Both the position numbers and the translations under genes were made by a program. Under the pieces are notes generated by a model. That model was not told the origin of the DNA and did not search any database. It saw nothing but the letters and a program-made list of their open reading frames with translations. Below are positions 21,701 through 64,000 of a stretch of DNA of 64,000 nt, piece by piece. This stretch comes from Clavelina lepadiformis (lineage: Eukaryota; Chordata; Ascidiacea; Aplousobranchia; Clavelinidae). The first letter of the stretch is position 1, and every line of letters begins with the position of its first letter. The stretch spans positions 1,490,501 to 1,554,500 of the forward strand of contig NC_135247.1 of assembly GCF_947623445.1 (NCBI RefSeq), in the 5' to 3' direction.

Positions 21701-23292
21701 TATGCTTCGCTGATTCGATAGACGAGAATTCTATGTTTTACACAATTTTATATTACATTAATTGATATATTTATCACAGAATCATACTGATACTGATGGT
21801 CAGAGTATAATTTTTTGCTGAAATTTGCTAGTGCCGTCATGTGTTACCAGTCTATAGAAGTTGAACTAAGCAAAGGTCTTCTGGGTTTGGTGGCCGTGCT
21901 AACCTTCCATCGTTGTAGCATCACTGTAACTTACACATAGCAAGTTTAAAGCCTCAGCGTTTTTCCGCTCTTTGCCCGTTCGCTTACTGTTTGTGAGCGT
22001 ACTTGTCTGACCATTCTACAGCAAGGTTAGTACCATACTTTTCGCTGCCCACAGTCAATGACGAAAAATAAATAATACAAAAAAGCCGCGGTATTGCAGG
22101 GATGTTCAATTTGCCATCTAGCCTACATTGTGGTATGGCCTTTTACGAACCATTCAAGAGGAGAAAGGGAAAATAATTGCGCTATAGAATTCTAAGTTGT
22201 TACTGTACAAAGTATTAGCCTATTATGTTTAAGCTCAAGTACTTCTGAATCTGGGGCTAGTAGGCTACCATATCTTCCAGACATCAATGATAACATTCGA
22301 AATTCGGTTAAAATCAAACACAAAAATCTTTTACTTTTAATAAATACGAAAATAGATTTAAAATTCGAAGAATTAATACTGTATTTGCATTACTAACAAT
22401 AAACAAATATCAGTTATAAGCAACAGTAAGCCAAATTACAAAAAATTATATTTGCTAAAAACGATGTTGGAAACACAACTACGAAAGATGACGGCACTTG
22501 GATGCTAAAAAAAGTTTGTTTACATCATGAGATTTATGACGTCATCATGCGTCAGTTTGCTCTACAAGTGTGGCGCAACAAGTAGGCTATAGTATATAGG
22601 TTACAGCCTCGTATAGTTCGGCTGAAGCTTTGACAAGCTGCCCTTTCCTTAGCCAACTGGAGCAGCGGTAGTCTAAGTCTAATTTACCATGATTTCAGCG
22701 TAAACGCGTAACGCAATCGCGTTGTTCAAGATGGACGTTTAGGCTATATATAGCCTACAGGCTGTATGTGAAATAAATATAGGCATTACATTAGTAGGCA
22801 GTTAAGCCTCTTGGATCACTTATACTTTTGCACCCTGACTTGAATGGGAAGGAGTTTTGAGGTAATGGAAAAGAAGTTATGACGTAATAATCCCTCCATA
22901 CTCGGTCCTGATATGGGAGTGCAAAAGTAAAAGAGACCCAGCTGCTTGTCCCTAACTTGCTAAGTTGCTTTTAACTATTTAATAAACCGTTATAGATTTT
23001 CAACCGTATCGTAAGGCTGAAGTAGGCTTAGATTCAAAGGTGACTTACTAAGATTAGACTGAAGGTCATATTGGCAATATCTATGTTAATATCAAATATT
23101 ATACATGTCAAACCATTTTTTGGCTTTGTCGTTAACATTTATTATCTGCTGCAGCGTGGATGCCAGAAGTCATTTATTACCCACTTTGTTACTTACTTAT
23201 TACTCAAAAACCAGGATAAAATTATTTTTTTTGTCTTTATCAGTTTTTGTCTACCAGTGTACTTAGTTCTAAGTTCAACTGAATTTTAAACC
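18777..23292. other. Gene-poor spacer between the ABCB gene and the GPCR gene
   Basis: It contains the poly(A) signal at 19051 and the MITE at 19387-19644. The open frames at 21059-21322 (87 codons) and 21512-21721 (69 codons) show no domain, no splice context and no similarity I recognise, and I do not call them genes. TAGGCCTA-like words are frequent but scattered. The right end should hold the promoter and 5' leader of the GPCR gene. Confidence 0.5.
19387..19644. mobile_element. hAT-type MITE rich in ACTCGAGT words
   Basis: The right end reads inward as CAGGGTTGTAGACAAAAAAT. The left end, CAGTGCAGCTATGACTCGAG, is a decayed match. Flanks AGGAATAG (19379-19386) and ATGAATAG (19645-19652) agree at 7 of 8 positions, fitting a hAT 8-base target duplication. 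The interior is imperfect repeats of TTGACTCGAGT and TTGACTCAAG. No coding capacity. Confidence 0.65.
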
Positions 23293-24324
23293 ATGAATGG
23301 CAGCATGCAATGCACACTGTTTGGTGGCGATAATGAAAAATGTAATACGATAATTGCTTTAAAAAGAGTGACTGCATCGCTTTCTTTAGTGGGATGTGTA
23401 TTCATGATATCAACTATATGGCTCTTTCGAAAATATAACGTCCTATCACAAAGACTCATTCTCTTCTTGAGCATTGCCGCTTTGTTTGACTCGATTGGAT
23501 ATTTAATGGGAGATATGACACCTGATGGGCCAACATGTGACTTCGAAGGTTGGTGGTTGACATATTTTGACTGGACAGTCCTGATGTGGGTGTCATGCAT
23601 CACGTACAACTTGTACCAAAACGTTATGAAACACAGGCGTACCGATAGATTGGAAAAGTTTTACCACTTTTTCAGTTGGGTGATTCCCCCACTTTTATTC
23701 AGTCTTCTTCCTTTAATTGGGGATAACTATGGTCCAGCTGGTGCCTGGTGTTGGATTAAGCATGAGTCAACGGCCTGGCGCTTTGCCATTTGGTATGTGC
23801 CACTCTTCGTCATAATCATAGCTCTATTTGGCATCTATATTTACATCATTATTTATCTGAGGAAGCAAATGACTTCTTGGGGTGGTAATTACAATCCAGA
23901 CGATGAATTTAACAACGCTGTCATGGAAGATGACATTAAAGTTTTGAAGGCGTATCCGTTTGTGTATCTAGCTTTGTCAATATTTCCACTTATTCTTCGT
24001 ATCCATAATGCTGCCACAGATGAAGGTGATGATGTTTTCGCTCTTTGGGTTCTGACTGTCCTTACAGCACCTTTGCAAGGAGCGGTCAATGCTATTGTCT
24101 TCGGTCTTGACCCGGAGACAAGAACCAAACTGACCTTGGAAGAGATACAGCTTGCATGGAAAAGTAGATCAGGTGGATCGGCAATTAAAGAGTACCCTAC
24201 AGTGTCTGTCGATCCCAGCAATACAACCGTAACAAACAGTTACGCCATAAATGATGATGTCGACCCAGCAGTAATCCAGAGACAGATTTCTCAAGATAAG
24301 ATTAGTTATAGCTCACTCAATTAA
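23293..24324 (+). CDS. GPR157 / cAMP-receptor-like G-protein-coupled receptor
   Basis: 343 residues in one uninterrupted exon. The start is secure because an in-frame TAA lies three bases upstream. Seven hydrophobic helices are visible: near residues 26-45, 53-72, 88-107, 124-142, 162-190, 215-236 and 247-270. Two features place it in the cAMP-receptor-like family, which includes Dictyostelium cAR proteins and vertebrate GPR157: RTDRLEKFYHFFSWVIP at the loop 2/helix 4 boundary (GPR157 has RTDRL...FHVVSWGVP), and GAWCWI in the second outer loop, with a partner Cys at residue 82. Helix 7 ends LQGAVNAIVFG, the family's equivalent of the NPxxY end. The length is close to human GPR157 (about 335). 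A cytoplasmic tail of about 65 residues is rich in Ser/Thr. The ligand is unknown. A weak poly(A) signal, ATTAAA, lies at 24494. Confidence 0.88.
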   Translation: MNGSMQCTLFGGDNEKCNTIIALKRVTASLSLVGCVFMISTIWLFRKYNVLSQRLILFLSIAALFDSIGYLMGDMTPDGPTCDFEGWWLTYFDWTVLMWVSCITYNLYQNVMKHRRTDRLEKFYHFFSWVIPPLLFSLLPLIGDNYGPAGAWCWIKHESTAWRFAIWYVPLFVIIIALFGIYIYIIIYLRKQMTSWGGNYNPDDEFNNAVMEDDIKVLKAYPFVYLALSIFPLILRIHNAATDEGDDVFALWVLTVLTAPLQGAVNAIVFGLDPETRTKLTLEEIQLAWKSRSGGSAIKEYPTVSVDPSNTTVTNSYAINDDVDPAVIQRQISQDKISYSSLN

Positions 24325-31330: not shown

Positions 31331-33081
31331 TGTGCATAGAACTGCAGTCTTAACAATACGCAAAATAAAATAACGAAGGCTGTAAACCAATACGTTCAGA
31401 TGTTCTAGCCTAGGCCTAATCTAACTAAATGATTAATTAAATGTTATACCGTACTGAAAGGCATACTCTGTATTACCCCACCAGCACCGTTTAATTTTTG
31501 AAGATCTTGTCACTGAATTAAAGTACAGTACAATTTGTTTACAAATTCTCCGTTTAATTCAGCACAAGGCACAAATATCGCTGAGCTTTTCAGACCTTGG
31601 TTTGTTTTAGCAAAGACATTATTGATTGTCGTTGTCATGACTACAGTAATCCAAGCATGTTATTCAAACATAGAAACAAAATAAAAGTGAAACCAAAATT
31701 GGACCAATCTCAGTTAACTTAAACCACCAAATTGAAGATAAAAATTAATATTTTGATCAAAAAAAAAAATTTAACTGGTAATAAAATTTTAGTTCACAAA
31801 TTAATTACTCCCGTAAAATAGTACTTTCCATTCAAAGAAAGGTGAAAAGATAAAATAGGTTGTTTTTAATTTTTTAGACACATTATGTCTAAATGCTTCA
31901 ACTTGTGTAAATATTGTTTGTAAAATGATGTGTTTTATGGCGATTAAGCTAAAATTACAGTAAGTCATTTTTAATATCTTTACATTTATCACCTTACAAG
32001 AATTTATAAGTTACTATGAATGTAAGATTTTACTTGTTTAGCGTGATCCCCGCGAAATGCTGAGCATTCCCGCGAAATGGAAAGCAATGAAGCAATTTGA
32101 TGACATGAGTTTGCTGGGTGTGACGATTGCACGATGCTAGGCCTATTTCACCTGAAAAAAGTCTGCACGCGCTATGGCCTAGACTCTTAGAGTCTGGCGT
32201 ATGCTTTTCAAAGATTTTGGTAGTGTAATATCAAACTCATCGGCAAGAAATATATACCCAGAGCATTATCTGTTTAATGGTAACTTAGACCAGCAAGGCC
32301 AAAGCTAATTTAACCTGCGCATAAATATAGTCTTCATTCGATGTTTGTTATATTCTAGGCTACCCTTTCGGTTTTAGCGGCCGTACTGCCGAGTATGGCG
32401 GTTTCCAGCAAATCCTTGGGTACACCAAAAAATGTGTTTTTAATGTAAAAACCGTAATGTGCATACCAAATTAAAGCACACGTCATTGCTTTTAACTCTG
32501 CGAAAGATTTAAAAATGTTTTACCTGTGATCGAAGACTAACACCCTCCATTAGTAAATGACATAAGAACTTTTACAAATTTACCAGCGTAGAACGTGACA
32601 CAACAAAGTTCAGACAACCAATGCGAAGCATGTTATTAGCCTAAAATTAATAACCTCACAAGATAAGGTCAGACCACATTCAGTGAGCATTTCTTTAGCC
32701 TGTGATTTGACAAAAGATAGGTCAACAAAAGGACATAAAAGGCAATAAATTTTTTTTGTTATTGTTATAACTGTTGCGCATTTTTTCGGGACATATCTGA
32801 GTGCGCCCGACTTAGGACGTTTGACCATTTGCATGGAATAAAAATTTGCGGATTTTCACTATCCTGGAAAGGTTGAATGAAAATTTGCATTTAGTTATAT
32901 AAAAATTTTTGCCTGTTATATCCAGTAAAACTTGTGTTATATAGAGAGGTTTGGATCAGCAAAGAAAGAATCTTCTTGAAAATTTGCTGCGCTGCTATAA
33001 ATGACTACAATGTATGTTTGTACAGATTAAATTTGCAGTACAGTACTTGTTAAATTTGCTGAAGTCATCCAAGCAAAGAAG
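31331..33081. other. Divergent intergenic region between CFAP210 and CDCA7
   Basis: The two genes are transcribed away from each other, so this 1.75 kb should hold both promoters. No TATA box or CpG-rich island stands out. Open frames at 31801-31992 and 32610-32834 on the minus strand lack coding features. Nothing else recognised. Confidence 0.5.
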
Positions 33082-34041
33082 ATGACCACGGTTACAATGC
33101 AGCACTCGCGTGACATCCGCGCTTTGTTCGATGAGAGCAGTGATGCGGAAGAGTTCTTTGGCTTTCCTTCAAGCGAAGTCTCATCAGTTGGATCATCAGA
33201 GGATTTACTCAAGGACATTGAAGATTCTGAAAAAATATGTGACACTGATAGTTCGGATGAATCATCTGATGACGATTCTCACGAGAGCATTGTAAGGAAA
33301 CAACGAGCTCAGCTGATGAAGAAGAAGCAATTCCTTGACAATCTGATGAAGGATCTTAACTCAAATCCAGCTTTTCTCAAAATGAAAGCGACAACTCCGC
33401 AGCAATATAAAAGGAGTTTATCTCCAAGGAAAAATCCAAGAAAGAAAACCCAACGTGACATTTATTATCGCGACCCCCCTGTAACAAGGCAGAGGTCAGG
33501 ATCTACAAAACTGCATGAACCGTTAAAACAGAGGTCGTTCAGATCCTTCTTAACAGTTAAGTTCCAGATGAAACGGAAACAGAATATGGAAACAAACATG
33601 GGCCCTAAACGAAGGTATTCATCCCACAATGCCCAAGTTCATGAAATCATTCCAGTTGAAGACGTAACCCGAGAAATGCTGAACAATATTGCTCAGCATT
33701 CAGTCGGAAAGCATTATGATGCAATAAACGGTAGTTCTTGTCACCAGTGTAGACAGAAAACAATCGATACAAAGTCTTGTTGTCGAAGCAAAGATTGTGT
33801 GGGGGTTCGTGGTCAGTTTTGTGGACCTTGCTTGAAGAACAGATACGGCGAGCTCGTGGAAGACGCTTTACTTGATCCAGAATGGAAATGCCCGGTTTGC
33901 CGTGATTTCTGCAACTGCAGTATTTGCCGCAACAGGAATGGAAAGTGCCCCACTGGCATTCTCATCGGATTGGCGAGGCAACATGGCCACAGCAATGTCA
34001 AGGATTATCTGGATGCCTTGAGTAAAAACGGATTGGAATAA
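33082..34041 (+). CDS. CDCA7: CDCA7-type zinc-finger protein (HELLS cofactor)
   Basis: 319 residues in a single exon. The C-terminal 100 residues are the CDCA7 zf-4CXXC_R1 domain. Cysteines at about 220, 223, 233, 234, 239, 247, 250, 270, 273, 277, 279, 282 and 289 fit CHQCRQK, GVRGQFCGPC, NRYGE, DPEWKCPVCR and CNCSICR, closely matching vertebrate CDCA7/CDCA7L. CDCA7 binds DNA or nucleosomes and recruits the remodeller HELLS to maintain DNA methylation. The residues altered in human ICF syndrome (Arg of HQCRQK, Gly of VRGQFCG, Arg of NRYGE) are all present. The N-terminal 110 residues are acidic and serine-rich with a short helix KKKQFLDNLMKDL; the middle is basic. The start at 33082 is the first ATG; a second Met follows five residues on. 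A poly(A) signal lies at 34690. Vertebrate orthologues are multi-exon, so intron loss or retroposition is possible. The CDCA7/CDCA7L distinction cannot be made. Confidence 0.9.
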   Translation: MTTVTMQHSRDIRALFDESSDAEEFFGFPSSEVSSVGSSEDLLKDIEDSEKICDTDSSDESSDDDSHESIVRKQRAQLMKKKQFLDNLMKDLNSNPAFLKMKATTPQQYKRSLSPRKNPRKKTQRDIYYRDPPVTRQRSGSTKLHEPLKQRSFRSFLTVKFQMKRKQNMETNMGPKRRYSSHNAQVHEIIPVEDVTREMLNNIAQHSVGKHYDAINGSSCHQCRQKTIDTKSCCRSKDCVGVRGQFCGPCLKNRYGELVEDALLDPEWKCPVCRDFCNCSICRNRNGKCPTGILIGLARQHGHSNVKDYLDALSKNGLE

Positions 34042-37889: not shown

Positions 37890-38412
37890 GTGTTGTTGAA
37901 TAGACATCAGCTTGAATAGACATTTCTCCTTTTGTTTTTTTGGCGAGCGTTTCATAGCGGATTGAAACAGCGTATCCTGATTCGTCCGTCATCAAGAGCT
38001 ACGCAAATAAAAAAAAGAGCGTTGTTTGCAAGACTCAGGTGAAACTTCAGTATCGAGCCCAGCTCTATTTTCTCAATACCTGCGCTTTTGCGACCGAGTT
38101 ACTTGTCCTTTTTAGTTCATGTGTTTACGAGCGCCGCAAATTGCCATTCTTAGCTTGTAAGCGACTAAGGTGCGAGGGCCACAGGTAAACGAGCAAAAGC
38201 CAGCGAAGTATTTCTGTGTACTTCACAATTAATTAAGCTATGCCATGGAATGTGGCACTGCAGTTTTCTTGGTGCCAAATGGTCACAAAACTAGTGACTT
38301 ACTGTTTTCTGTAACAGGTGGTTGATAGCAACCTAGTCATACCGAAAAAGTGCTGAGCGTTTTGTTCAAAGAGAAGATGTAGCATGATTGTAGAGTGATA
38401 AATCCAGACACT

Positions 38413-41400
38413 ATGCACTCCCGCTACCGATTTAACCCAAATCGTCCCGCTAGAAAAGGATTTCTTTCCACTCCAGCAAATGTTGGCGTAAAACCCCACC
38501 CGTCTTCGCGTCTAGCTTCAACAATGGCGGCACCTCAAGTGAACATGAGCAACATTATTTACCCCAAACCTTGTCTTTCGTCGTCAGCAGAGTCGCCTTC
38601 GTTTGTTGTCCGATACCCGTCAAATGAAGAAGTTACGGCGTCACAAAACGGTGCGTTTCACCACCAGAGTTTAAGTATCGGGGTCTTGCACGGTACCAAC
38701 AGCTCAAAGCATCCAAGCGTGGCAATCAAGCAGCGACCGTCGCAAACGCCTCAACCGGGTAAGGCGCCTACAGTCATCCGGACGCCAGCTCCACAAGCTC
38801 CGCCCCACCCAAAGAAGCCACAAACGCCAGGTCCAAGGTCTCCACCTCAACCTGCTGTCGTAAATGTGCCGAAGCAACAACGACCTCCTCCGATTGTCAC
38901 GCTAGCACAAAGTCAAACTCAAGGAGCAAAAATGCCCCAAACGGGCAATCCGTCCCCAGTAAATGCAAACAAAACGTCGCCCAAGAAATCTCCTCAGCAA
39001 GGAAGTTCTGGAAGCGCAAAGACAAGCCTAACGCCATCTCAAACGGTAAATAAGTCCGTACCAAAACGACAGTCACCCCCTCAACGTAACCAACCCGTTG
39101 TGCCAGAACACCGAGGTCCTCCTACAAGAAGCTTATCCGAACCACATTATTCTCCAGTGAAAGTAATGGAGAGCTACTCTAACCAATCTGACTTTGTGAA
39201 TGGTTCTGTTCCAACAGCAGTCAACTGCGGAGTTCCAGCGGCACAGCTTCAACCGCCACGTTATCCAGTCGAGCATTTCATGGAAAACCAAGGGAACTTT
39301 GATTACTTACAAGAAGAAGACAACGAAGATGAAGAAAAAGATGTAAACGTTAACAACGAAGTAGAAAAGGATGAAGAAGAATTTTTTGATCAAACTGAAG
39401 CCAGCACGTCAGAGAGCAGCTTTGACGAAAATTCTTATAATTACTCAAAGCCTCCGACGCGTTCTCCACCGCGATCTGGAGGAAGCCAGTGGGATACACC
39501 AACATCACGAAAACAAGCCACGCTGCGGCAAAACTCCCTTCCGCAGCAGGCATCCTCATCTTTTACTGCTCGGCCAAAGAGGCAAGCTTCACATTCAGCT
39601 AAACCTGCATCTATATTAAATATAGTTCAACCTGTGGCGAGCACCGCGTTAGGAGCCCTCATCGCAGGTTTGGATCCCTCACGAGACACAAGTCCACGTA
39701 CTTCCCCTGAAGAGCTTGTAAGTTGGAAACATTAAATAAGCACAAATTTAATCCGCTCAAAAGAGCTCTGTTTTTATCTTGGATGCATAAATAGGATTAG
39801 AGGCTGTCTGCCTGTATCAATTTCGACACTTCTGTTTGCAGAGCTTGTTTGATGTCGTGTCTTTGTACAGTCAACTTCAGCTTTCTTGTCAAACTTATAA
39901 CATCAGAATGGTTGAGGTAAGAGCGAATGTGAGCACTAAACAGCTAACGTCAACTCAATTTGTTAAATACCATCGTGTGCCTTAGGCGTCTGTTGGACTG
40001 GACGACAACAGATTTGAAGTAATTCACCATCAAGAAGCTGCAGACGCGCGAAGGATTTTTGAATCGGCCAGGTATGATATCGGTCAACAGATGTGGCGAG
40101 ATCGCAAAGCTGAGTTAGAAGACTTTCTGAAAATCGAGCGAGAAAGATTTAAAGAGTTTAACCGCACGAAAAGGGTAAACACTGCAAGTACATTAACCTC
40201 TATGCGTCTTGAGGCGTTACACGAACCATAAGTTGGAATTCTTTTTTGTAGGAGCTTAATCAAGAGAAGGAAAAAGTCCGTAGTCTACAAGACCACATAA
40301 ACAGATTAAAAACAAAAGACAAAATGGTAACTAAAGTGAAAAACAACGATTGGTGAAGTTGGTGTTTAGCCTTTTTTGTCACTACGGTGAATTGATTTTA
40401 TAACACAGCAAAGTTAAACATAGAGGTTATTGACCAAGCACCATTAACAAAAGCTTAAATACAACAGGGACCATTTTGGCCTCCTGAGAAAATCAAGTGC
40501 ATTCTATCTAGAGAAGGATTACTTGGAAAAGGTGGGTTTGGAAGCGTTCGTCTGGCGTTTGTTGGTGCTCACGGTGCAGTGGCCATCAAATGCCTCGCCT
40601 TAACTGGAGCCAGGCAGGACATCGAAGCTGCTGAATCCAAGTAAATAGAAATTATTCTATAAAACATCATCATGTTGTCCTACGACTCCAGACAGAAGTT
40701 TGTAGATGTATTTAATTTATTAGAATTAAGGCGGAAATCGAGATGCTACGAAAAGCCAGTCACAAAAACGTCGTTCGAACATTTGGGTATACCAGATGGC
40801 CGGATGCGCTAGGTATTCTGATGGAGTACATGGCCGGAGGAAGCCTCTACACATTGCTGCTGGGCAAAAAACGAAACGGATACTATCAAGTACCTCACCT
40901 ACCTGGATTAATTCTACTTCGAATTTGCACAGATGTCGCTTGTGGCGTGGCCTTTCTTCACCACGATTTCGAAAGTAAGCGCATGACCCATGGCGACCTG
41001 AAGCCACATAATGTGCTTTTAACGGCTGATCTTCAATGCAAAATCGCCGATTTCGGAGGAGCGGACTTGGCAACATGTACAACAACGTCAACCTTAGGCC
41101 TAATTAATGGCACCGGCACATCCCACGAGTATACCCCGATGTATTCAGCCCCAGAGCGACTGGAAAACACCACAGCAAGACCGAGGAAAGCCATGGACGT
41201 CTACAGCACTGGATTGATATTCCACGCTGCCTTGTCACGAGAAGCTCCCTTTCCGAGACATATGAAACGAAATGAAATTGTGCGCTTTGTGTGCAACGGA
41301 AATCGCCCGGAAGTTGACATGATCGAGCGTCACATCGAAAGATTGGATGACGAAGATGAAGTGGAGATCTTTGAACTTATCCAAGACGAGATGAAGAAGT

Positions 41401-41621
41401 GTTGGAGACAGGAACCAAAAGAGCGGCCGACCATGGCGGAGGTCAAAGAAAATCTCCAAAGACTGCTTTCATCGCAAGATATGGAAATGATCCGCAAAGA
41501 CGTTGATGAGATCATGCAGTACATGAAAATATCGGCCAAGACAATATCTGCTCAACAGTACCGGTGTGGTCCAGTAGAAGAACTCATTCCTCCGAGCTTC
41601 ACGCCTATAATAGATATCTAA
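38413..41621 (+). CDS. Serine/threonine kinase (TKL/RIPK-like) with proline-rich N-terminal region
   Basis: Six exons: 38413-39717, 39842-39916, 39986-40174, 40252-40326, 40468-40640, 40724-41621, predicting 904 residues. The first exon encodes about 435 residues of disordered, Pro/Ser/Gln-rich sequence with many PxxP motifs (PRSPPQPAVV, KQQRPPPIVT), then an acidic stretch near 300-330. Residues 436-548 are predicted helical/coiled coil. The kinase domain starts near 555: glycine loop GKGGFGSV (568), VAIK lysine (589), HGDLKPHN (Asp 697), DFGG (715), SAPERLE. Lys, Asp and DFG are intact, so it is probably active, but HRD is HGD. The overall sequence looks closest to tyrosine-kinase-like families such as RIPK. 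Start: the ATG at 38413; an in-frame stop lies shortly upstream. AATAAA lies at 41888. It shares its last five exons with the minus-strand kinase at 49818-56927. The substrate and pathway are unknown. Confidence 0.85.
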
Positions 41622-42500: not shown

Positions 42501-44306
42501 TTTCACCTTGAAGCATGTCTTCTGTTGCTTTGATTTTTATTGAAACATGTCATTAGTGCACCAATTTTTGCTCAAATTTATATTTGATACTTTTAAACTG
42601 GGCAAGACAGTGTTGGAATAAATTTCACTCGATCTGTAAATTGTTTAACAACATCCGCCATATTTAGATATTGTGCTTGCAACGATACTGATTTTCTTTG
42701 AATCCAAAACTTTGCTTTTTGATAGTTTCAGTTGAATTCAAAATTTGGTGACTTTTAATTTTCTTTTTATACATCTCAGTTATAATGGCGATTTACATGG
42801 TGGGTTTTGAATGACATCATAACTGACATTTGTGGAAAACTAATTTGAAGTAAAATTTTTGGCTATTGGAAGCCCTGCTTGCTACAGGTTATATATATCT
42901 TGATGGAATATTTTGTAATTGTTTTTGTGTCAGTGTGTGTTGTGTACGAGCTTTACGTTGTCATTGTGTTCGCTATTCATAGGTTTGACATTTATTGTAG
43001 CCTATTTGTGAAATGAAATGCCGGTACGATTGGTCTTAACAATTATGACCTAACAATCAACTTGCCTGGTTTCCAGGATCGATTGCATTGAGAGAAAAAG
43101 GACGGTAATTTTGTGACGCAGAATTGGTCAGTATAAACGATCAAAAAGTCATACGTCATCACACGTCATAAACAGCAGCACAATTACAATGAATTCATTG
43201 GACTGAGATAATTGATGTAAATTAATGTGATAATATTTCAGTTTAAGAGTTTCAAGTTATTATTACTACGTGTAACGATTTACTCTTTGACGTACAAACG
43301 AAGCAGCTTTCAATACACCAGCCAAACTATATTTTCGCTACAGTCACCAGAAAACCTATGTGTATGGCTGAATTAACACGCGAAACGCCGCTTCACATCA
43401 ATCAGCTGCGCTTCAGGCAAAATACAGAATGAGCTCAGCAATGAAAACGGTTCACAAATTAAGCCACAAATACTTGCAAACCAATCAGGGGTTTGCTGCC
43501 TTACATGTGAAACATGCTGTTTGTGACACAGATTCTGGCGTAACGACAAGAGTCAAGAAACATTGAAGGAAGGAAGAAGATAGATTTATGTTATAACATT
43601 TAAGTTAAGTCAACAAGAAACTGTGCAAAATAGCTGCGAACACAATTTGTTTCAGTGAAATAGCAGCTTTAAAATTATGGTAGATTTGAAGAAAACTTTG
43701 TAAATTGATTTAAATTATTTACTAATAACATTTTTTGCTTGTAGAGTCCTCTGCGTAGGTGCGGTGATAAATTTGAGAATTTGTTGACTAATTGTATAAT
43801 TAACTGATTTACTGAAGGCATGTGGTCTAAGCTTATCGTAGATTGTCGACTAACAGCTCGTTTGAAAAGCTCTCTGCAGAAAACAGAATGATTTTACTGG
43901 GCCTTGGATAGAGTTCACTATTATTATTCCCAGTGATTAATATAACCAGCGCGCAGCTGACAGACGCAACAGGCGCAATAATTTCTCGTGAGTTTGCATA
44001 CTTGCCATTGATTAGTACTATAGATTAACATTAGTTTTTTGTGATATCATAATATAACAGTGGTCGGTCAAGTCAACCCATGACTTGGGTTGTGCTGCGC
44101 TAAACGGACCTTGAACTCAACATAACATTTTGCTATATGTGCTGTAATTTGCCATTTGTTAGTTTAACGTGTTGTGTGAAAAGAGTGACAGTTTGTCAGT
44201 GCATAATAATGCTAATTAGACATTGAGTATAAATTGTTGGTATGCTGTTTTCAGGTTGCATGAAGTCGTGCTTTGGTCATTATTACCTTGTCTGTGTCCC
44301 TGAGGC

Positions 44307-45597: not shown

Positions 45598-46150
45598 GTT
45601 TTCCTATTTTTAAGACTTCTCTCGAAGTTAAGTGTTTTATCTAGTTTAAGTAATTGTCTAGAAAGTAGGTGCTTTCTCTAATTATAGGACTTTTCTACGC
45701 ATCAGGTGCTTTCCCTACATTTACAACTTCTCTATAAATTAAGTGCTTTACCTACTTTTAGGACTTTTTGATTATTTAGGTGCTTACCCTACTTTTAGGG
45801 ATTATCTATGCATTAGGTGCTTCCCCTAATATTAGGAATATTCTATAAATTAGGTGCCTCCCCTACTATCAAGGATTTTCTATGCATTAGGTGTTTCCCC
45901 TACTTTTAGGAATTTTCTATAAATTAGGTGTTTCCCCTACTATTAGGAGTTTATTATGAATTAGGTGCTTCCCCTGCTATTAGGAATATTCTATGCGTTA
46001 GGTGCTTCCCCTACTATTAGGAATTTTCTATGCATTAGGTGCTTCCCCTACTATTTAGAATTTTCTATGCATTAGGTACTTTCTTTAGCTTTAGGACATG
46101 TCCAGAAATTAGGTGTTTTTGCCTAGTTTTAAGAGTTTTCAAGGAATTGA
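45598..46150 (+). repeat. Minisatellite, about 37-bp unit, about 14 copies
   Basis: The unit is approximately GTGCTTCCCCTACTATTAG followed by GAATTTTCTATGCATTAG. Copies are most uniform at 45800-46070 and increasingly degenerate towards both edges, as expected if the centre turned over most recently by unequal exchange or slippage. No coding frame. Confidence 0.9.
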
Positions 46151-48634: not shown

Positions 48635-48870
48635 CGGACGACTCCGTATGTTCCTCTGCCTAAGAACCCATCTTCAACCGGTGCTAGTATATCACGTGGT
48701 GGGTGGTATAGTGATGTCTATGAAAAGACAATTTTCGTCATGCTGCTACCATGAAAGCTATTGCTAACATAAAATGTAGCACAGTATAACGGATGTGCAG
48801 CGGTCCCAAATAAAAACATACGCTGCACAATGACAACAAAAAAAGTTATACCATGAGTCCTTATATGCCC
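48635..48870 (-). pseudogene. Broken duplicate of the kinase N-lobe exon
   Basis: A close copy of 50987-51228, covering the 5' half of the kinase exon (HPPRDIL, EDGFLGRGTYGVVR) and the adjoining intron up to the GTATAAC donor border of the exon before it. The coding part breaks off just after the glycine loop, where the sequence stops matching and a stop follows. The VAIK-lysine half is absent. It lies 1.2 kb beyond the 3' end of the intact gene, in the same orientation. This is a fragment of a former tandem copy or a partial duplication. Confidence 0.8.
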
Positions 48871-49817: not shown

Positions 49818-52800
49818 TCAACGAAAGGTGAAGAAATCAAAATTTGGCGGATGAAAATGCTGAATAGGCTTACAGGCATCTGGGTCATAGGAAGGAACTT
49901 TGATGTCTATGTGCTTGGTGATATCGGCCACATGCTGAGCAATGACAGCTTGATCCTTGGTAGAAAGACACTGCAGGAGACGATCACGAACATCCATCAT
50001 GGAAGGCCTCTCATCAGGATTGTGCTCCCAGCATTTCACCATTTCATCCTTGAGAAGATCAATGATGGCAACATCCGCATCATCAGTCAAGCTTGCCTTG
50101 AGATCCTCAACATCATCAAGAGGAGGACGGTAGTGGCTAGAACGAATGAGAACAACGTATTGGTCCGGTGACATATCTTCTTTACTGTTCTGATGTGGAT
50201 GTTTACGAATCAAGGCTGCTCTAAGGGTCATAGCAAAGCTGAAAGTGTCCATAGATGTTCTTGTCTTTGTAGGGCCTCGAAGACGTTCAGGTGCCGCATA
50301 AACAGGCGTCAGCTCTTTGTGCCGTGGCTCTGCATCAGCGGTCGTGGTGTTGCCACTGCACGTGGCAAGTTCGGCGCCACCCAGGTCACTCAATTTGCAG
50401 TGCAGATCTGCTGTCAGCAAAATATTTTGAGGCTTCAGGTCGCCGTGAGTGATGCGCTGTTGGCTGGTTGAACCATCGTGAAGGTAGGACATGGCACCTG
50501 CCACCTCGGTAGAAATACGCAGCTGCACGACTGCTGGTATGAAAGGAACTTTAAACCTGTTTCCAACTTCACTAAACAGAAGAGAGCAAAGAGTACCGCC
50601 TGGTAAATACTCAAGCAGTATACCCATAGCACCATGCCACTGCGTGTAACCAACGATGTCAACAAGGTTGGTGTGACGAACTTTGTAAAGTAGCTTCATT
50701 TCTTCAACACACCTAAAGCACGATAAACATTAAAATCTAACAGAATAACAAGATTATTACTCTTGTGATACTTTCTTTAAACATATATACGTTTTCGAGC
50801 TTGATTATCATATGTAAATCGACAACGACAAACAACACCGGTACGTACTGAGGATAATAAAAACAGTGTTGACAGTTTTAAAAATATTTCCTACTTCCTC
50901 ATTTTTTCTGAAATTTCCTCCGCAGATCCAGTTACAGGCAAGCACTTAACAGCCAAAGCACTATGGCTTTTTGTGAAGACACGGCGGACGACTCCGTATG
51001 TTCCTCTGCCTAAGAACCCATCCTCAACCAGTGCTAGTATATCACGTGGTGGGTGGTATAGTGATGTCTATGAAAAAACAATGTTCATCATGCTGCTACG
51101 ATGAAAGCTACCGATAACATAAACAGTATTACATCTTTCACTTAGAGCATTGTATATCAGATGTACAGCATTCTCAAATAAAACATATGCTACAACGGTA
51201 ATAACACTTAAGCTATACCATGAGTCCCATTTTGTCAAGTTTTGTCATTTTCTCCATTTCATGGGAACGATGTTTCAATTCCTGTTAAAGAAGACATATG
51301 ACAGCAGGGTAAAAGATAAATCACACAGCCACAACAAAAACACAACCAACAGTATGTTGGGTTTAAAAGTCATCATACAAACAAAACAATTAGTTCACGG
51401 TTATTGAGAACTGAACATGTTTTGGATTCGAGACTTCCCAATTGAGAGGATGTCATATTAAAACAAAGAAATGTTATAGATGAATATTCTAGTGACATGT
51501 CATAGGTATAATAAATGTAAGCACAGATTCCATAAATGTAGCAACTTATGTCATCCAGTGCCAAATAGCATTTTTAAGCACTGCAAAAGTAGGCTACTAC
51601 TTGCGCAAGATAATATAATAGCATTGCTTGCCTTGACAGAAATGCTTGCGTAAAAATGGTTTCTGTGAAGCAAAAAAGGAGGGGACCCAAGTGTAAAACC
51701 TGAATCAGTGGGAACATTCAACATGATAACAATGATGTCAAACGTCCAGGCTTGGTTTTGGATTCAGCATGCCGATAATTCAATCATATCAGCATAAAGC
51801 ATCCAAATAAAAGTATCATATCATTGGAAACTTTTACCAGTTTATTTCAGAAGTTCTTTTACCTTCAGAGTTTTACAACATGATCAATTTAACACTAGAA
51901 CGGCCGGAAAACAAGTTTACCTCTAACGGCCGGTGGTGTCGAAAACGACACCATCCTTAAAAATGTACTTTTTGATTTAATTTAGCGAAAAACTCAAAAC
52001 TAAATACTTCCGTAATGAATTTAGGATGTATTTTTCTTGTTCAGTAGAAACAAAAACTAACATAGCTACAGCAATTCGACCTTTGATGACGTTGCACAAG
52101 TTTGTAAGAAACGAAAAAAAACAATATTTATGAGTTGAAACATAAACAATCATTATTCTGATGGTAGGTATCTTAACAAAACGCTAACTATTGCAGAAAA
52201 AGCTCATATGTTTCCCACACACAATGTGATAAGTCTTTAGAGTTTACAGCAGGACCCATGTTGATCTATTTACGTCGGGCAGTTTTTGCATTGTGTAAAT
52301 TTCCAGTCGCCGTTACCACACACTCCGCAAGTTGGCCTGTTGCAGTGACTTCAAACTGTAACTATATAATTTTACGACTTTCTTCCGCACATTTCCTTCG
52401 CTTTCCAGATGGTCTTCTCTGCGCTGGGTTCACTTCTCTTTGGACCACCTGCTTCTGCTTCACCACGTAAGCATCCCTCAACCCCTCCGTAAGCTGGAGT
52501 ATGAAGCTTCGTCGGCCGATTTTGCTACCGAAACATTTTCTGTGCAGAATCCAGGAATTTAGCTCTACTATGTCCAGTAGTTTTGTCCAAACAGCCAAAG
52601 GTCATCGTCTACTTGCTGCATGAGTTGTGTATTTTCTCGCCGTTTGGTCATTAAACGTCCACGCCTACCTTCTTTTGTTTTGGCCTACTGTACAGTTTAT
52701 AGCCTAGCTCTGCTAATAGCGTATGGCATACACTCCATACGTTGCACAAAAACTGTCGTGTGCATTTTACAGTTCGCCTTCGCTGCAAAGCAAAGCGAGT

Positions 52801-55800
52801 TTGTATTGTGCAAATGTACATGGACAAAGTACGTTTAGGATGTCATAAACTCTCCGTAAAAGTTGTATCTAAATGAGATAAACAATCACTTGAAAAGATA
52901 AAAACTGGGCTAATCTCAAGTATATGTTAGTTGCAAGTGCAATCGTGCGAAGTAAAAAGATTTTGTAGTCTACTGAACCTCTAAAATCATCTTGGTGTCG
53001 ATTTCGACACCTCGGCCGTTGAAGGTATAACAGGTTGTAAAAAATAAATCGAAAATCAAATTTCGGTAAATGTTACTTATCCATACTCTTTCAAGAAAGT
53101 TAGGAAGCTACTGAAAATTTTATATCGTTGCAACTGCTTTTACTAAAAAAAAATATACATCAAAATTCAAAAAGTGTCGATTTCGACACCTCGGCCATTC
53201 TAGTGTTAATCAATTAGATTTTCAGTACATTGCATGGTGGTTGGTCGATTCAACCAACGAACGATTAAACCCAGAACAATCCAGCCCACAGACGTTGTTT
53301 GGGTCGTCCTGTCTTTAGCCGTTCTGGGTTAAATCGTCCTGGGTTGAATTAACTTGGAACTATATGGTACACACACAATATTAATTATCCTGTAAAAACC
53401 TATAAACTGTTGGGCAAAAATTACTGCTATTTATGACTATAAAATAGTGATACAAGTCAAAGTTTTACTGTCAGTGGCAAAAAAATCGAGTTCTTGTACG
53501 TTCATAGGCTTCAGGGATACGCGAGACCGAAAGGACCTCCTACCTGTTGCCTCTCGAAGGTTTTCCTCATCTGAAATTCAACCTCCTGTAGATCCTTTAG
53601 AAAAAGAAGGATACTGGAGGAAAACAGGAGCTGAAACTCAGGATGTTTGGAGCAACAAGCTTCAAATTCTATAAGAGCCGCATCATGAGCTTTGCAATGC
53701 AACGATTGAAAACTTTCAAGCGATGTGACTTGTGAGATGCCAGCCTGGAAACATCAAAGAAATTAGATGTTCAAGCCCAATGATAACCATCCACACAGTA
53801 CAATGATATAGTGGAAGACATCTTTCAACAGTAGTCGCAAACTAATAGAACCAGAAACTTAATATGTTACCGCCTCAAATAAAATAACGAATTTTATTTT
53901 TGTCTGTTTTGGACATTCAGATAAAAACTTGGTAATATTGCTTTAAATGAGAAAACAATCACTTGCTTATGAAGTCATGAATATTCACCTGCAGTTCATC
54001 TTCATATTTCTTCACACAGACAAATGAAAATTGTCTGCAGACATCATTAAGGTTTTCCTGTGAATTAAAAATTTCAAATAAAAAACAGGAACGATTTTTA
54101 CAGAAATAAATCACATTCTGTACCTTTGTTATGTCAACCAATTAACATTGTTTAAGTGAACATACCTTAAACTTCATGAGGTCTTAAAGTGTATATAAGG
54201 CTGTGTTACCGCTATTATATTGCTATTCTTACAGCAACAATTGTATTCACAGCCTACAGATATTGTTTATGTGGTTTTACCTTCCTTTCATTGTTTTTAG
54301 AAATGAAACAGCTCCTGCACTGCATCAGGTCATTTTCAAGTATCCCAAAATATTCCAGATAAATTGAGCATTCATTCACCGGCTTCTCACAATGCCCTTG
54401 AAAGTATGCAATTGCGGTTCGAAACGCTCTGTCGCTGATGTCTTTCAAGACGTCATCAGGTACCCATTGATTCTTGACATTTTGCTGACAATGGTTGACA
54501 TGAAAATTGATCAAATATACAAGCCAGAAAAAACAGTCGTCACCAGTTACTAATTGCCACCATGCAATACACAATGCTTTGCATGTCTTTCACTTTAATC
54601 TTTTCAGAATCAAACCTCGATTTTCCAGACACTTATTAATTTGCAGCAACTAATTAGCACAATTAAAAATTTATTTGTTACTGAGTACAGTTGCTCACCA
54701 CAACTTGCCTTTTGTAATGATCAAGAGATAGTTTTCTTACTTCTTCCAATATTTTAGTCAGCATTTCCTTTTAACGTATATGCACAATATAGCTAAGAAT
54801 TATGACAGCAACTTTTTATACAAAACCCAAGAAAATGTAGATAATAGATAGACTACATAGTAGATAATTAGGTATACATAGAACTGCAGGCGATTCCCCG
54901 AAAGTTTTGTTTATATAATGTTAACATGTGCAGTATACCATACCTGATTTTTCTCCTGGTACACTATCTGCAGTCTGTCGAAAGTATTTGTCAACTTTTC
55001 CAGGAGATGCCTTTTCAAACCCGGGTTGATCATGTAAAAATTACTGTTTAAAGCACACTCATGTGCGTTGCGTAGTTGGTCATCTGACAACATCACATGA
55101 CAACGCTAAAAATAAAAAACAAACTGCAAAATATATGATAAATACCCATATACTATAAATATAAATGTACCGCAAAAAGTCAAATATATGCCGCAACGTG
55201 TTTCTTAGTACAAAATTGGTGCAACTTCAAACATTTATATTATTTTTTTGTCATTGATGCGATGAGGACGAAACAACACGACACCATAGTCACTTATTGT
55301 GTCTGTCTTAAAAGTAGAACATAAAATACAATTTTAAACACAACACAGCACGGGTAATGCTGTGTAAAACTATGAAATTAAAAGTCATACACAAATATGG
55401 GAAATACTAGAATACAGACCTCTTCCATAAAATCTTTGTAATTTTGCAAAAGCTCACATTCAATCTATATATATAATACACAAAACAGTAAAATTGGAAC
55501 CAGTTGGTTCACAAAGCTCAGAATACTACCATAATCATACCCATATTTAAAGATATAATAACATGAATGTATTTTAAAAGCAGCTAAACAAAAGAAAGTG
55601 CTTAACGTGTTATCAAACACAATAAATTTTCTTACCTCTTGAACAATCTTAGGACAGACCGTGATCTCCAAGACCACTTCGCTTGACAAGACAACAGCAG
55701 GGTGCAATGATATTTGCCCAAGTTTCACTTCACCACGCCATACCTATACATAGACACACATTAACATGACAAATATACTTTGACACGCCACGATATATTA

Positions 55801-56927
55801 ATGAATTTTTTGCTTGCAGAAAACATAACACTAATGCTGTACAGATACAGAATGTAATACAGAGGGCTGTCTGTGGTATATGTTTAACCTTTTTCCCATT
55901 CCGTGTGAAAAAGATTTCAACAGTATTCGGCAACTTGCTTTTTCGCAAACCGCATCCAACTGAATCCTTGGAGTTATATGGATGGGCCTGACACGTTCTC
56001 TGCAAGCTTCCGGTACAAATACTAAAAAAGAAAAAGTAAATAAAATCCAAAACACTCATTCACTCAACAGGCAATCAGGAAAAAAGCTTTTTCGAAACAG
56101 TAATTCAACTTTAGTTGAACCAAAATCTTTCATTAACTCAGAAATGAAATAAAGTTTGTGCCCGCATTACTACAAACTCATATTCACCTTCCATCTGGCC
56201 AGTAACCAAAAGAGTCTTTGGCCCATCCTGGATTGTGTCCAAAATTATAATCAGTTGGGACCAGTCCAACAACAACACCTAAGAATACGAGAAATAGTAT
56301 TTATTTGCATTAACTAAACTTATCACAAACTCATGCAACAAGCTAAGAACATAATTACTGCTAGTTTCCAATAGTTGCCCTTACCCAGAAGAAAGTTCAG
56401 CCAGTTCATAACATTTAAGTCATTAAAATTAAAGCTTTAAAGCTAATCACGCCCGAAAGTATATCATGCCTATGATTTTCAACATTTTTAAACTTTGTTT
56501 TCAAGCTTTAAACACAAGTTCTTAATAGTACATAAAATTTCAAGAAAATTTTGCCTTGTGTATTTATTAAATTCATCGCAAACCTTTTCCCCTTTCCTGA
56601 TGTAAAATCGTCACTTCAAAGTAGTTTTCTTTTTCAGTAAGACTTGATGTCAGAACAAGATGGCCGTGGCATGGTTTAGACTTGTCGTTCCTGACAAAAA
56701 TTGAACTGATTAAGAATTATCTTTCAGCTTGCGATGTTTGGGCAATAAAATAAGTATATACTTCTCAGAGATTATAAATATTACTCAGATATTATCGTTT
56801 TATTAATTAGCATTATTATTATTATTGTTTTATTGATTAATCTTATTATTTTATTATTTCCATACTAAATTCACCTTACAATGTACCCGTCTAAGTTTAT
56901 TCCAGTTGCTTTGTACCAATTTTTCAT
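49818..56927 (-). CDS. SPRY domain - helical region - serine/threonine kinase (TKL/RIPK-like)
   Basis: 13 exons with matching phases predict 767 residues. In transcript order: 56927-56875, 56690-56584, 56278-56188, 56021-55889, 55743-55636, 55464-55420, 55105-54944, 54484-54281, 54057-53989, 53744-53544, 51281-51219, 51067-50895, 50712-49818. Residues 1-165 form a SPRY domain: WYKATGINL start, YFEVTIL, GVVVGLVPTDY, GWAKDSFGYWPDG, DSVGCGL, VEIFFTRNGKK. These folds usually bind proteins. Residues 165-412 are helical with several cysteines. The kinase follows: GRGTYGVV (432), AVK lysine (453), HGDLKPQN (Asp 561), DLGG (579), AAPERLR. Lys, catalytic Asp and metal-binding Asp remain, with HRD changed to HGD and DFG to DLG. 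The last five exons (69, 201, 63, 173, 895 bases) mirror those of the plus-strand kinase. Start: first in-frame ATG of the SPRY exon, with a stop six codons upstream. An intron carries a piggyBac relic. Role unknown; an adaptor-coupled signalling kinase is a fair guess. Confidence 0.82.
51893..53205 (-). mobile_element. piggyBac-like transposon, internally reduced, inside a kinase intron
   Basis: TTAA flanks both ends (51889-51892, 53206-53209), the hallmark target duplication. Terminal inverted repeats start CACTAGAACGGCCG and CACTAGAATGGCCG, each followed by GTGTCGAAATCGACAC-like sub-terminal palindromes. Minus-strand frames near 52640-52265 keep the transposase C-terminal part: ARKYTTHAASRR, then PLAVWTKLLDIVELNSWILH, RRSFILQLTEGLRDAYV, and in a shifted frame the Cys-rich finger CNRPTCGVCGNGDWKFTQCK. 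At least one stop (where a Trp is expected) and one frame change interrupt it. The N-terminal part and the DDD catalytic core are missing, so the copy is dead or non-autonomous. Confidence 0.85.
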
Positions 56928-62900: not shown

Positions 62901-64000
62901 AAAACGTGGATCCTTTCTCGTAGAGATAGTTGTTGAGAAAAGACTGTAACAGATGAACAGACGTTGAATGCAAAACGCAAATTTAGTTAAGTTCTTGCGC
63001 GTGTACAACTCAGTTTGCTGTAAATTTCTTGTAGTTAATGTAAAATCTATATCCCATAATAACAAACGACTGATGTTCTAACCTGCTCGTATTCGTTGCC
63101 AATGACAACGAGTTCAGCGGAGTTGTTCTTGCACCATTCCCGCGCTGTTTCCCATGTGTATGTCTTTTCACCTCCAGTGACGTAGCAGTTGTTTCCATAC
63201 GGTGAAAAACCTATATGGCAGTTACTTCATATATAACAACTCATAAGCAATCTCTGACGTTTTACATTGCATGATGACGTGTCCACAAGCAGAAAATCGT
63301 CACCTGTTGGGCAGTTTCCAGTAGCCTGGGGGGTTGGATCAACTTGACCTCCAGTGGAGCCAATAATCTTTTCACAAACATACCCGAACGTTCTACCGCA
63401 ATTGTCGTCATTCCATAATCCGCCGTCCGGTGATATGGTGACGCAACCTGTGATGAAGACGATGACGTAGAGTTTCAGAGTTTTACCCTCCAACTTGGAC
63501 GCATAGATTAAGCACACCGACAGAGCTTTATTGTCAAAAAGCAAGTTGTGCAACAATCTACCTTCGCTGTCGTAGTAGTTGTTTGGTTCTCCTGGCGACC
63601 AATTTGTGTAAACATATGGGGAACCATCTGCCCAGTAGAAAGCGCTTCCGCCAGAGTTCTGTTATGAATGCAATGAAAAAAGTTGATTTTAAGTTTAAAC
63701 AGTAACAAAGAATCAGGTCTTTCTAAGCAAACACGTGAATCATACCATAAATATATAACCAACGTCACAATGATACATTCGTAAGCCATTACCCTCAGTC
63801 CAATCCAAAGAGCTTGCGCAGTCGTCTGATAACCTCTCGACAGGATGAAGCTATTCTCGTCAGCGCTCTGTATCGCCACCAAATGTCCACCTTTCGTAAT
63901 ACAGTCGTTCTCAGCATACTGCCAGCCGTGATTTATGTTGTCGATGAACATGTAACATTTGTCGTCGCCGGTATCTGGTACTTGGTAGCGAATCTGCATT
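59997..64000 (-). CDS. Mannose-receptor-like membrane protein: four or more C-type lectin domains, trefoil domain, one TM helix; 5' end outside window
   Basis: Minus-strand exons: 64000-63793, 63658-63562, 63447-63304, 63210-63083, 62943-62794, 62690-62450, 62302-62181, 62098-61975, 61775-61604, 61512-61338, 61071-60904, 60747-60595 (border within a few bases), 60301-59997. They encode four consecutive C-type lectin domains. CTLD1 has EPN with WND, CTLD2 EPD with WAD, CTLD3 EPS and no WND, CTLD4 EPN with WND. By the known rule, domains 1 and 4 should bind calcium and mannose-type sugars. Then comes a trefoil (P-type) domain with CSVANVNRYDCGYEG and RRGCCFDAS, a linker, and a single helix (GAIVGIVIGVLVVIVLIAGG). 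The cytoplasmic tail of about 45 residues is rich in Ser/Pro/Met, with a PSVSMPSFTMPNF repeat and FDNPM, which recalls FxNPxY endocytic signals without the Tyr. Probably an endocytic or pattern-recognition receptor at the cell surface. An internal GTAAGT six codons before the stop could allow another tail. Confidence 0.88.

Follow-up and report, generated by a model that had tools for sequence, protein, structure and literature searches.

Can a SPRY domain and a RIPK-like kinase be parts of one animal protein and, if so, what would such a protein do? The question is raised by a stretch of chromosome 8 (C8) of the ascidian Clavelina lepadiformis (positions 1490501-1554500, 64,000 nucleotides, referred to below as the window), for which a preliminary description had proposed a gene of 13 exons coding for a SPRY domain, a helical region and a kinase. 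Here we report that this gene, which we label A, is by its predicted exon structure one member of a four-gene SPRY–linker–kinase family in C. lepadiformis (genes A to D), whose members may serve as sensor kinases inside the cell.

Gene A joins a SPRY domain, a linker and a kinase in one reading frame

Gene A lies on the minus strand of the window, from 56927 to 49818, and is composed of 13 exons with GT..AG borders throughout and consistent phases (2,1,2,0,0,0,0,0,0,0,0,2 for the 12 introns). The predicted product is 771 amino acids long, with no stop or frame break across the 771 codons. The borders, the phases and the Pfam matches bear out the earlier proposal of 13 in-phase exons with a SPRY domain and a kinase, while the length of 767 residues given at that time becomes 771 in the present model.

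The SPRY domain is encoded by exons 2 (56584..56690, conserved in genes B, C and D), 3 (56188..56278), 4 (55889..56021, which holds the GCG and FFTRNG core) and 5 (55636..55743), the last three aligned with their counterparts in B, C and D; all four were placed with the exon model and Pfam, and, like every exon of A, they are on the minus strand. The Pfam SPRY profile PF00622 matches residues 37-154 (E 9.9e-11, 42.2 bits versus a curated cut-off of 26.3), and the best match in the PDB is SPRYD3 (2yyo, E 7.2e-18), with RanBP9/10 also among the nearest. In the Pfam scan of A only the SPRY domain and the kinase exceed the cut-offs, and RING, B-box and PRY are absent. The highest 19-residue mean in a hydropathy scan is 1.65 and is located within the SPRY domain.

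The two domains are separated by a linker of 256 residues (161-416), which the exon model distributes over six exons with phase 0 at both ends: exon 6 (54944..55105), exon 7 (54699..54767), exon 8 (54281..54484), exon 9 (53989..54057), exon 10 (53544..53744) and exon 11 (51219..51281). The name helical region previously given to this segment is unproven, as the linker has no Pfam match above cut-off (below it, only SAM_Exu at E 0.057 and RtcR at E 0.061) and no PDB match at E up to 1, and its low contents of proline (1.6%) and glycine (2.0%) are the sole pointer to helices. A coiled coil was considered and is not claimed, since its heptad statistic was equalled by 276 of 300 shuffled sequences. 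A search of the genome with the linker returned six matches, all of them to its own exons.

The kinase is encoded by exons 12 and 13. The former (50895..51067, ending in phase 2; exon model and motif scan) contributes the N-lobe with the GxGxxGxV loop and the AVK lysine, and the latter (49818..50712; exon model, alignment, motifs and AlphaFold model) provides the rest, including the HGD catalytic loop, DLG, APE and the stop codon. Residues 433-715 match PF00069 (E 2e-33) and PF07714 (E 5.9e-26), both above curated cut-offs, and the GxGxxGxV, AVK, HGDLKPQN, DLG and APE motifs are all present. DLG stands in place of DFG in the kinases of A and D, and is also found in RIPK1. The non-RD catalytic loop HGD is invariant in the aligned kinases of the family (21 of 21); non-RD kinases have been associated with innate immune signalling (PMC8463890).

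Sequence comparison of the kinase of A with the PDB places RIPK1 first (1.7e-23), followed by RIPK2 and RIPK4 and then by BRI1, RIPK3 and IRAK4 (among the best 60 of 1445 matches). The fold encoded by exon 13, leaving out the exon with the glycine loop, was also predicted with AlphaFold from 21 family members, with a mean pLDDT (the model's own confidence score) of 81, and led to the same proteins in a fold search: RIPK1 ranked first, and the best 50 chains were 45 of RIPK1 and five of RIPK2 (TM-scores 0.57-0.68). The kinase of A is a member of the tyrosine kinase-like (TKL) group whose nearest solved relatives are RIPK1 and RIPK2, both by sequence and by predicted fold, a placement based on comparison with solved kinases.

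Three paralogues on the same chromosome repeat the architecture

We surveyed the genome with tblastn of A against 20 regions of 10 kb picked from its kinase matches. SPRY exons were found at three places, all on chromosome 8 about 0.7 Mb from A, and at each of them kinase exons lie behind the SPRY exons in the same orientation: gene B (C8 808930-811795, plus strand; tblastn and exon model), gene C (C8 818627-814782, minus strand; tblastn and exon model) and gene D (C8 about 828.6-823.9 kb, minus strand; tblastn). In the modelled genes B and C, which begin with an ATG, the phases are identical to those of A, including the SPRY exons (2,1,2,0,0), the phase-0 linker exons and the phase-2 intron of the kinase. 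The linker of B and C consists of two phase-0 exons coding for 31 amino acids, and the corresponding region of D holds open reading frames (ORFs) that look charged and coiled-coil-like by eye.

These paralogues also inform the 5' end of the gene. Exon 1 of A (56887..56927, minus strand), which encodes MKNWYKATGINLDG and ends in phase 2, has the position and phase of exon 1 in B and C, where a phase-2 exon 1 holds the N-terminus MAMxRxxRSNSIQVxGNxL and SPRY exon 2 starts with one base; for this reason the junction GG|GTACAT is favoured for exons 1 and 2 of A. An alternative junction (ATT|GTAAGG to ACAAG|TCT) is also in phase and accounts arithmetically for the earlier length of 767 residues. 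Because the likeness of exon 1 to its counterparts was judged by eye, and no DNA similarity was found upstream of A, the model is weakest at the very N-terminus.

Searches of the genome with the SPRY domains of A, C and D returned no further intact SPRY of this type. The leftover matches comprise a decayed exon in the window (starting at 42784), three weak ones on C8 (1.00, 1.95 and 5.25 Mb) and a gene at C8:12.57 Mb. Outside the family, this gene gives the best match with an intact SPRY, and it resembles RanBP9 over its whole length (PDB, E 5e-199). With PF00622 as the query, 18 exons of the genome were matched, none of them belonging to A-D; split or diverged SPRY-kinase genes elsewhere could therefore go unseen.

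The two halves of the proteins have diverged to different degrees: amino-acid identity of A to B, C and D is 28, 30 and 35% in the SPRY domain and 62, 63 and 56% in the kinase. The ratio of nonsynonymous to synonymous divergence (dN/dS, by Nei-Gojobori) is 0.23 in the kinase for both A-B and A-C and 0.27 for B-C. In the SPRY domain it is 0.32 for A-C (dS 2.5, near saturation) and 0.34 for B-C, the synonymous sites of the A-B pair being too saturated to yield a ratio, and in the linker it is 0.28 (B-C).

Together with the lack, in A, B, C and D alike, of any in-frame methionine ahead of the glycine loop in the N-lobe exon, these data make it highly probable that A is translated as a single SPRY–linker–kinase protein, and indicate that the predicted fusion is real and replicated. 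As far as phases, domains, paralogues and dN/dS can test it, the earlier view of one gene with a SPRY domain and a RIPK-like kinase is right.

Probable gene conversion and remnants around the family

Within exon 13, a tract of about 180 nucleotides (49930..50110, minus strand) is 93-98% identical to B, C and D at the DNA level, and its flanks are 42-73% identical. Two 25-codon windows from codon 674 have A-B dS values of 0.14 and 0, whereas synonymous sites are saturated in those up to codon 648. The amino-acid identity to A in the tract is 92-95% for B, C and D and 53-62% for three related kinases on other chromosomes (L025-L027), and a fragment at C8:806.4 kb has most of the tract. This pattern fits a mark of gene conversion; protein constraint alone is insufficient to explain it, because silent sites are also identical, and another constraint on the DNA of the tract may be the alternative. 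The SPRY domains of B and C form a mosaic as well, with dS of 0.03-0.04 in exons 4-5 and 0.6-0.9 in exons 2-3, next to a kinase dS of 0.11.

The window contains further pieces of the family. Part of exon 12 and of the intron before it recurs as a disrupted copy with 91% identity (48635..48783, minus strand), and a decayed SPRY stretch with in-frame stops (42519..43250, plus strand) is 75% identical to the region of SPRY exons 2-3 in B. A second kinase of the family, at 40444..41621 on the plus strand, is 40% identical to that of A, and tblastn detected no SPRY exons belonging to it; upstream of it, at 39986-40356, is a charged exon that by eye looks common to L026, another kinase locus of the family.

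A 37-bp minisatellite occupies 45652-46081 and recurs, in opposite orientation, between B and C (C8:813.1-814.0 kb). The order SPRY remnant (plus strand), minisatellite, A (minus strand) mirrors that of B, minisatellite and C, so that a single tail-to-tail pair may have been copied to give both places. A simple copying of the whole B-minisatellite-C block into the window is a guess only, since the minisatellite has the opposite orientation.

Intron 10 of A harbours a mobile element of 1.32 kb (51889..53209) with TTAA ends and 18-nucleotide inverted repeats. Among the 49 genome matches listed for it (126 candidates, 40 scored), 32 other copies are near full length with 93-98% identity, so the element has moved recently. 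Its TTAA target suggests a piggyBac-like element.

A wider kinase family with variable upstream modules

At E <= 0.001 the genome contains 134 matches to the kinase exon of A (208 candidates, 132 scored), a figure that includes fragments and perhaps other TKL kinases and should be taken neither as the number of genes nor as their maximum. Of 20 family loci, 16 have the phase-2 intron behind the glycine loop in the corresponding position; L027, L038, L040 and L041 did not show it under a simple donor filter. In a tree of 21 kinases, computed with the C-lobe left out, A, B and C group together (support 99/96) within a clade of nine (94/93, unstarred) that also includes D, a group formed by L025, L027 and L028, the L026 kinase and the second kinase of the window.

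Two loci of this clade have exons for a guanylate-binding protein (GBP) upstream on the same strand. At L027 (chromosome 3) two ORFs match the GBP profile in Pfam (E 7e-19 and 1e-8), and at L028 (chromosome 2) joined ORFs do so (E 5e-15). At L025 (chromosome 1) a single exon is a 35% match to the L028 exon that lies after the GTPase exons and has no Pfam match of its own; L025 probably carries upstream GBP exons like L027 and L028, and the genome list of PF02263 (129 exon matches) has entries in the regions of L027 and L028, with none seen in that of L025. In the comparison of exons between loci, L038, a close relative, gave a weak match only, and L041 none. A predicted GBP-kinase fusion at L027 and L028 is likely, and in the subclade with the SPRY and GBP loci the kinase seems to be fixed and the N-terminal module variable. 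GBP exons are numerous elsewhere in the genome, on several chromosomes, with clusters at C3:17.9 Mb, C4:22.1 Mb and C9:12.4 Mb.

Among the other family kinases in the regions surveyed, no module was recognised that could be claimed as fused. Ankyrin exons lie upstream of the close kinase relative at L026 (C5:1755301-1765300), on the same strand; FEM1B/C are among their PDB matches, and they perhaps belong to a separate gene. An N-terminal ORF pair at L039 was dropped (the kinase-adjacent ORF has no Pfam match and the other matches only MRP-S26 below the cut-off, E 0.045; AlphaFold pLDDT 43), and TPR-like ORFs near the kinases at L033, L034 and L036 are too ambiguously placed for a fusion to be claimed, the TPR matches at L033 and L036 being below the cut-off. 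Exons upstream of some kinases that we would label XDH-like, SLC5-like and P4H-like presumably belong to neighbouring genes.

Other features of the window

The single ORF at 23290-24324 encodes a seven-helix receptor of a type known from slime-mould cAMP receptors (PF05462, E 9e-16), here in a chordate. An ORF at 33031-34041 has a zf-4CXXC_R1 domain (E 3e-38) and is a relative of CDCA7 (PDB, E 7e-52); between it and the second kinase lies a proline-rich ORF of 450 codons (38383-39735), with no Pfam or NCBIfam match from 38464 on. A C-type lectin exon (PF00059, E 2e-5) is located on the minus strand at 63227-63661. No Rfam family matches the window at its gathering score, and a scan for bacterial promoters and terminators, together with a count of poly(A)-like hexamers, yielded nothing usable for an animal gene such as A.

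Relation to known architectures

The preliminary description, which knew of no well-described animal family with this domain order, proves incomplete, since the pairing of SPRY with a kinase is not new in itself. According to PMC5071358, SPRY was originally recognised in ryanodine receptors and in SplA, a Dictyostelium protein that unites SPRY with a tyrosine kinase, as A unites SPRY with a kinase. SplA is from an amoeba, and its likeness to A is one of domain content. It reportedly has a SAM domain and is larger than A; our guess is that the joining of SPRY and kinase in SplA and in Clavelina was independent.

A second precedent is found among chordates. The RIPK homologues of amphioxus number 19; modules such as Zalpha, LRR, DEATH, SH3 or ZU5 are attached to some of them, and there are duplicated copies. 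As in Clavelina, these are kinases of the RIPK1-5-like kind that duplicated within a lineage, and the Zalpha module is N-terminal of the kinase (PMC9573974). The word SPRY, in contrast, has 0 occurrences in that text, and Clavelina has SPRY in A, in which no death domain was found, and GBP GTPase exons at sister loci. Vertebrate RIPK1 and RIPK2 have the kinase domains nearest to that of A among solved ones, but in RIPK1-5, according to the same source, the kinase comes first and the RHIM, death, CARD or ankyrin parts come after it, an order from which A departs with its C-terminal kinase behind SPRY; Pfam finds no CARD or ankyrin part in A.

TRIM/B30.2 proteins share with A the use of SPRY as a recognition module, yet A lacks their RING, B-box and PRY in the Pfam scan, its heptad signal is not above that of shuffles, and its SPRY is nearer to SPRYD3 and RanBP9/10, the closest PDB sequences. 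To our knowledge, there is no kinase in SPRYD3 or RanBP9/10. A literature search for SPRY kinases in tunicates or other animals, mainly among open-licence texts seen in part and thus weak evidence, found no case, and the SPRY partner domains given in PMC11788884 are others. The kind of architecture is thereby known from SplA and the amphioxus RIPK-like proteins, and the SPRY-RIPK-like kinase family, in which A is one of four loci within a large kinase family, is a new version of it.

A possible role as intracellular sensor kinases

SPRY domains bind peptides or proteins, and kinases of the RIPK and IRAK types become active once they are assembled close to one another. On this basis, the SPRY domain of A would bind a protein within the cell, whether the cell's own or foreign, the linker would set the distance and perhaps allow pairing in some copies, and the kinases, once brought together, would phosphorylate each other in trans and give an alarm output like that of RIPK and IRAK. 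Duplication, loss, gain of linker exons and gene conversion would keep the output kinase uniform and let the recognition half diverge, and a uniform kinase with a diverging SPRY is what is expected of a recognition family facing changing targets.

We give an about even chance to the explanation that the four-member family, on a duplicating RIPK1/RIPK2-like branch, consists of intracellular sensor kinases. Its sequence architecture, paralogues, constraint, conversion tract and catalytic motifs are observed; binding, activation by proximity and an immune role are what we infer from them. A is probably a cytoplasmic kinase in which SPRY selects the target and clustering starts signalling, so that the earlier suggestion of a target-sensing kinase was a fair one, the role itself being unproven. 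For an immune purpose, suggested by the relatives, the non-RD loop, the turnover and the module exchange, the chances appear about even. More tentatively, and with somewhat less than even confidence, the RIPK1-like non-RD cassette of two exons could be a common output for exchangeable detectors (SPRY at four loci, GBP GTPases at two or three) whose kinase end is homogenised by conversion.

Several observations weigh against this picture. D is not resolved with A, B and C in the kinase tree, the clade that joins the SPRY and GBP kinases is just under the program's star, and the GBP exons are known as upstream neighbours only. The SPRY dN/dS of 0.32-0.34 over the domain indicates no positive selection across it as a whole; exons 4 and 5 of the B-C pair reach 1.03 and 1.23, from five changes each and thus too few to tell, and the faster divergence of SPRY may come from relaxed constraint or from homogenisation of the kinase. 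Neither the RHIM core pattern nor a death domain was found in A (pattern scan and Pfam), and a common oligomerising role of the linker is unsupported, given that the linker of A has no relative elsewhere in the genome and that of B and C is so short.

The most serious competitor of the sensor explanation, which we nevertheless consider rather unlikely, is a developmental or housekeeping signalling kinase whose SPRY docks a fixed endogenous partner and which has no immune role. The dN/dS values well under 1 in both domains agree with it, as does the occurrence of SPRY in non-immune adaptors such as RanBP9/10, with a relative at C8:12.57 Mb, but the non-RD loop shared by all 21 aligned kinases and a birth-and-death pattern (decayed copies in the window, mosaic conversion, many kinase copies, variable upstream modules) speak against it. 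Less probable still is that the protein is mainly a scaffold, with SPRY doing the recruiting and the kinase domain passing the signal on through assembly and not through catalysis: HGD and DLG deviate from the usual HRD and DFG, and RIPK2 kinase activity has been reported as dispensable for NOD2 signalling (PMC6120666), but A retains the loop glycines, the lysine and the catalytic and metal-binding aspartates, and its kinase is constrained.

Two explanations would deny the gene itself. That a SPRY gene and an adjacent kinase gene were wrongly joined is very improbable; the 2.3-kb intron 10 between linker exons 10 and 11 would offer a place for such an error, but the four loci found with an intact SPRY of this type, weak matches on C8 aside, all have a same-strand kinase behind it, the phases are consistent across the linker in all three modelled genes, and the missing start codon before the kinase loop applies to all four genes, and this co-occurrence, these phases and this lack led us to reject it. 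A decaying or non-functional duplicate, to which the broken fragments about 1 and 7 kb past the 3' end of A and the mobile element in intron 10 might point, is hardly credible given the 771 uninterrupted codons and the low dN/dS.

If the sensor explanation is true, SPRY/B30.2 and perhaps GBP, both modules that serve immunity inside the cells of vertebrates, would be coupled directly to a RIPK1-like kinase, with the sensor and a kinase of death or inflammation in one chain. On the more tentative view of a common kinase cassette, the expanded sensor-kinase system would be an intracellular animal counterpart of the receptor-kinase repertoires of plants. The family provides concrete genes for asking whether RIPK-type signalling works without RHIM and death-domain recruitment.

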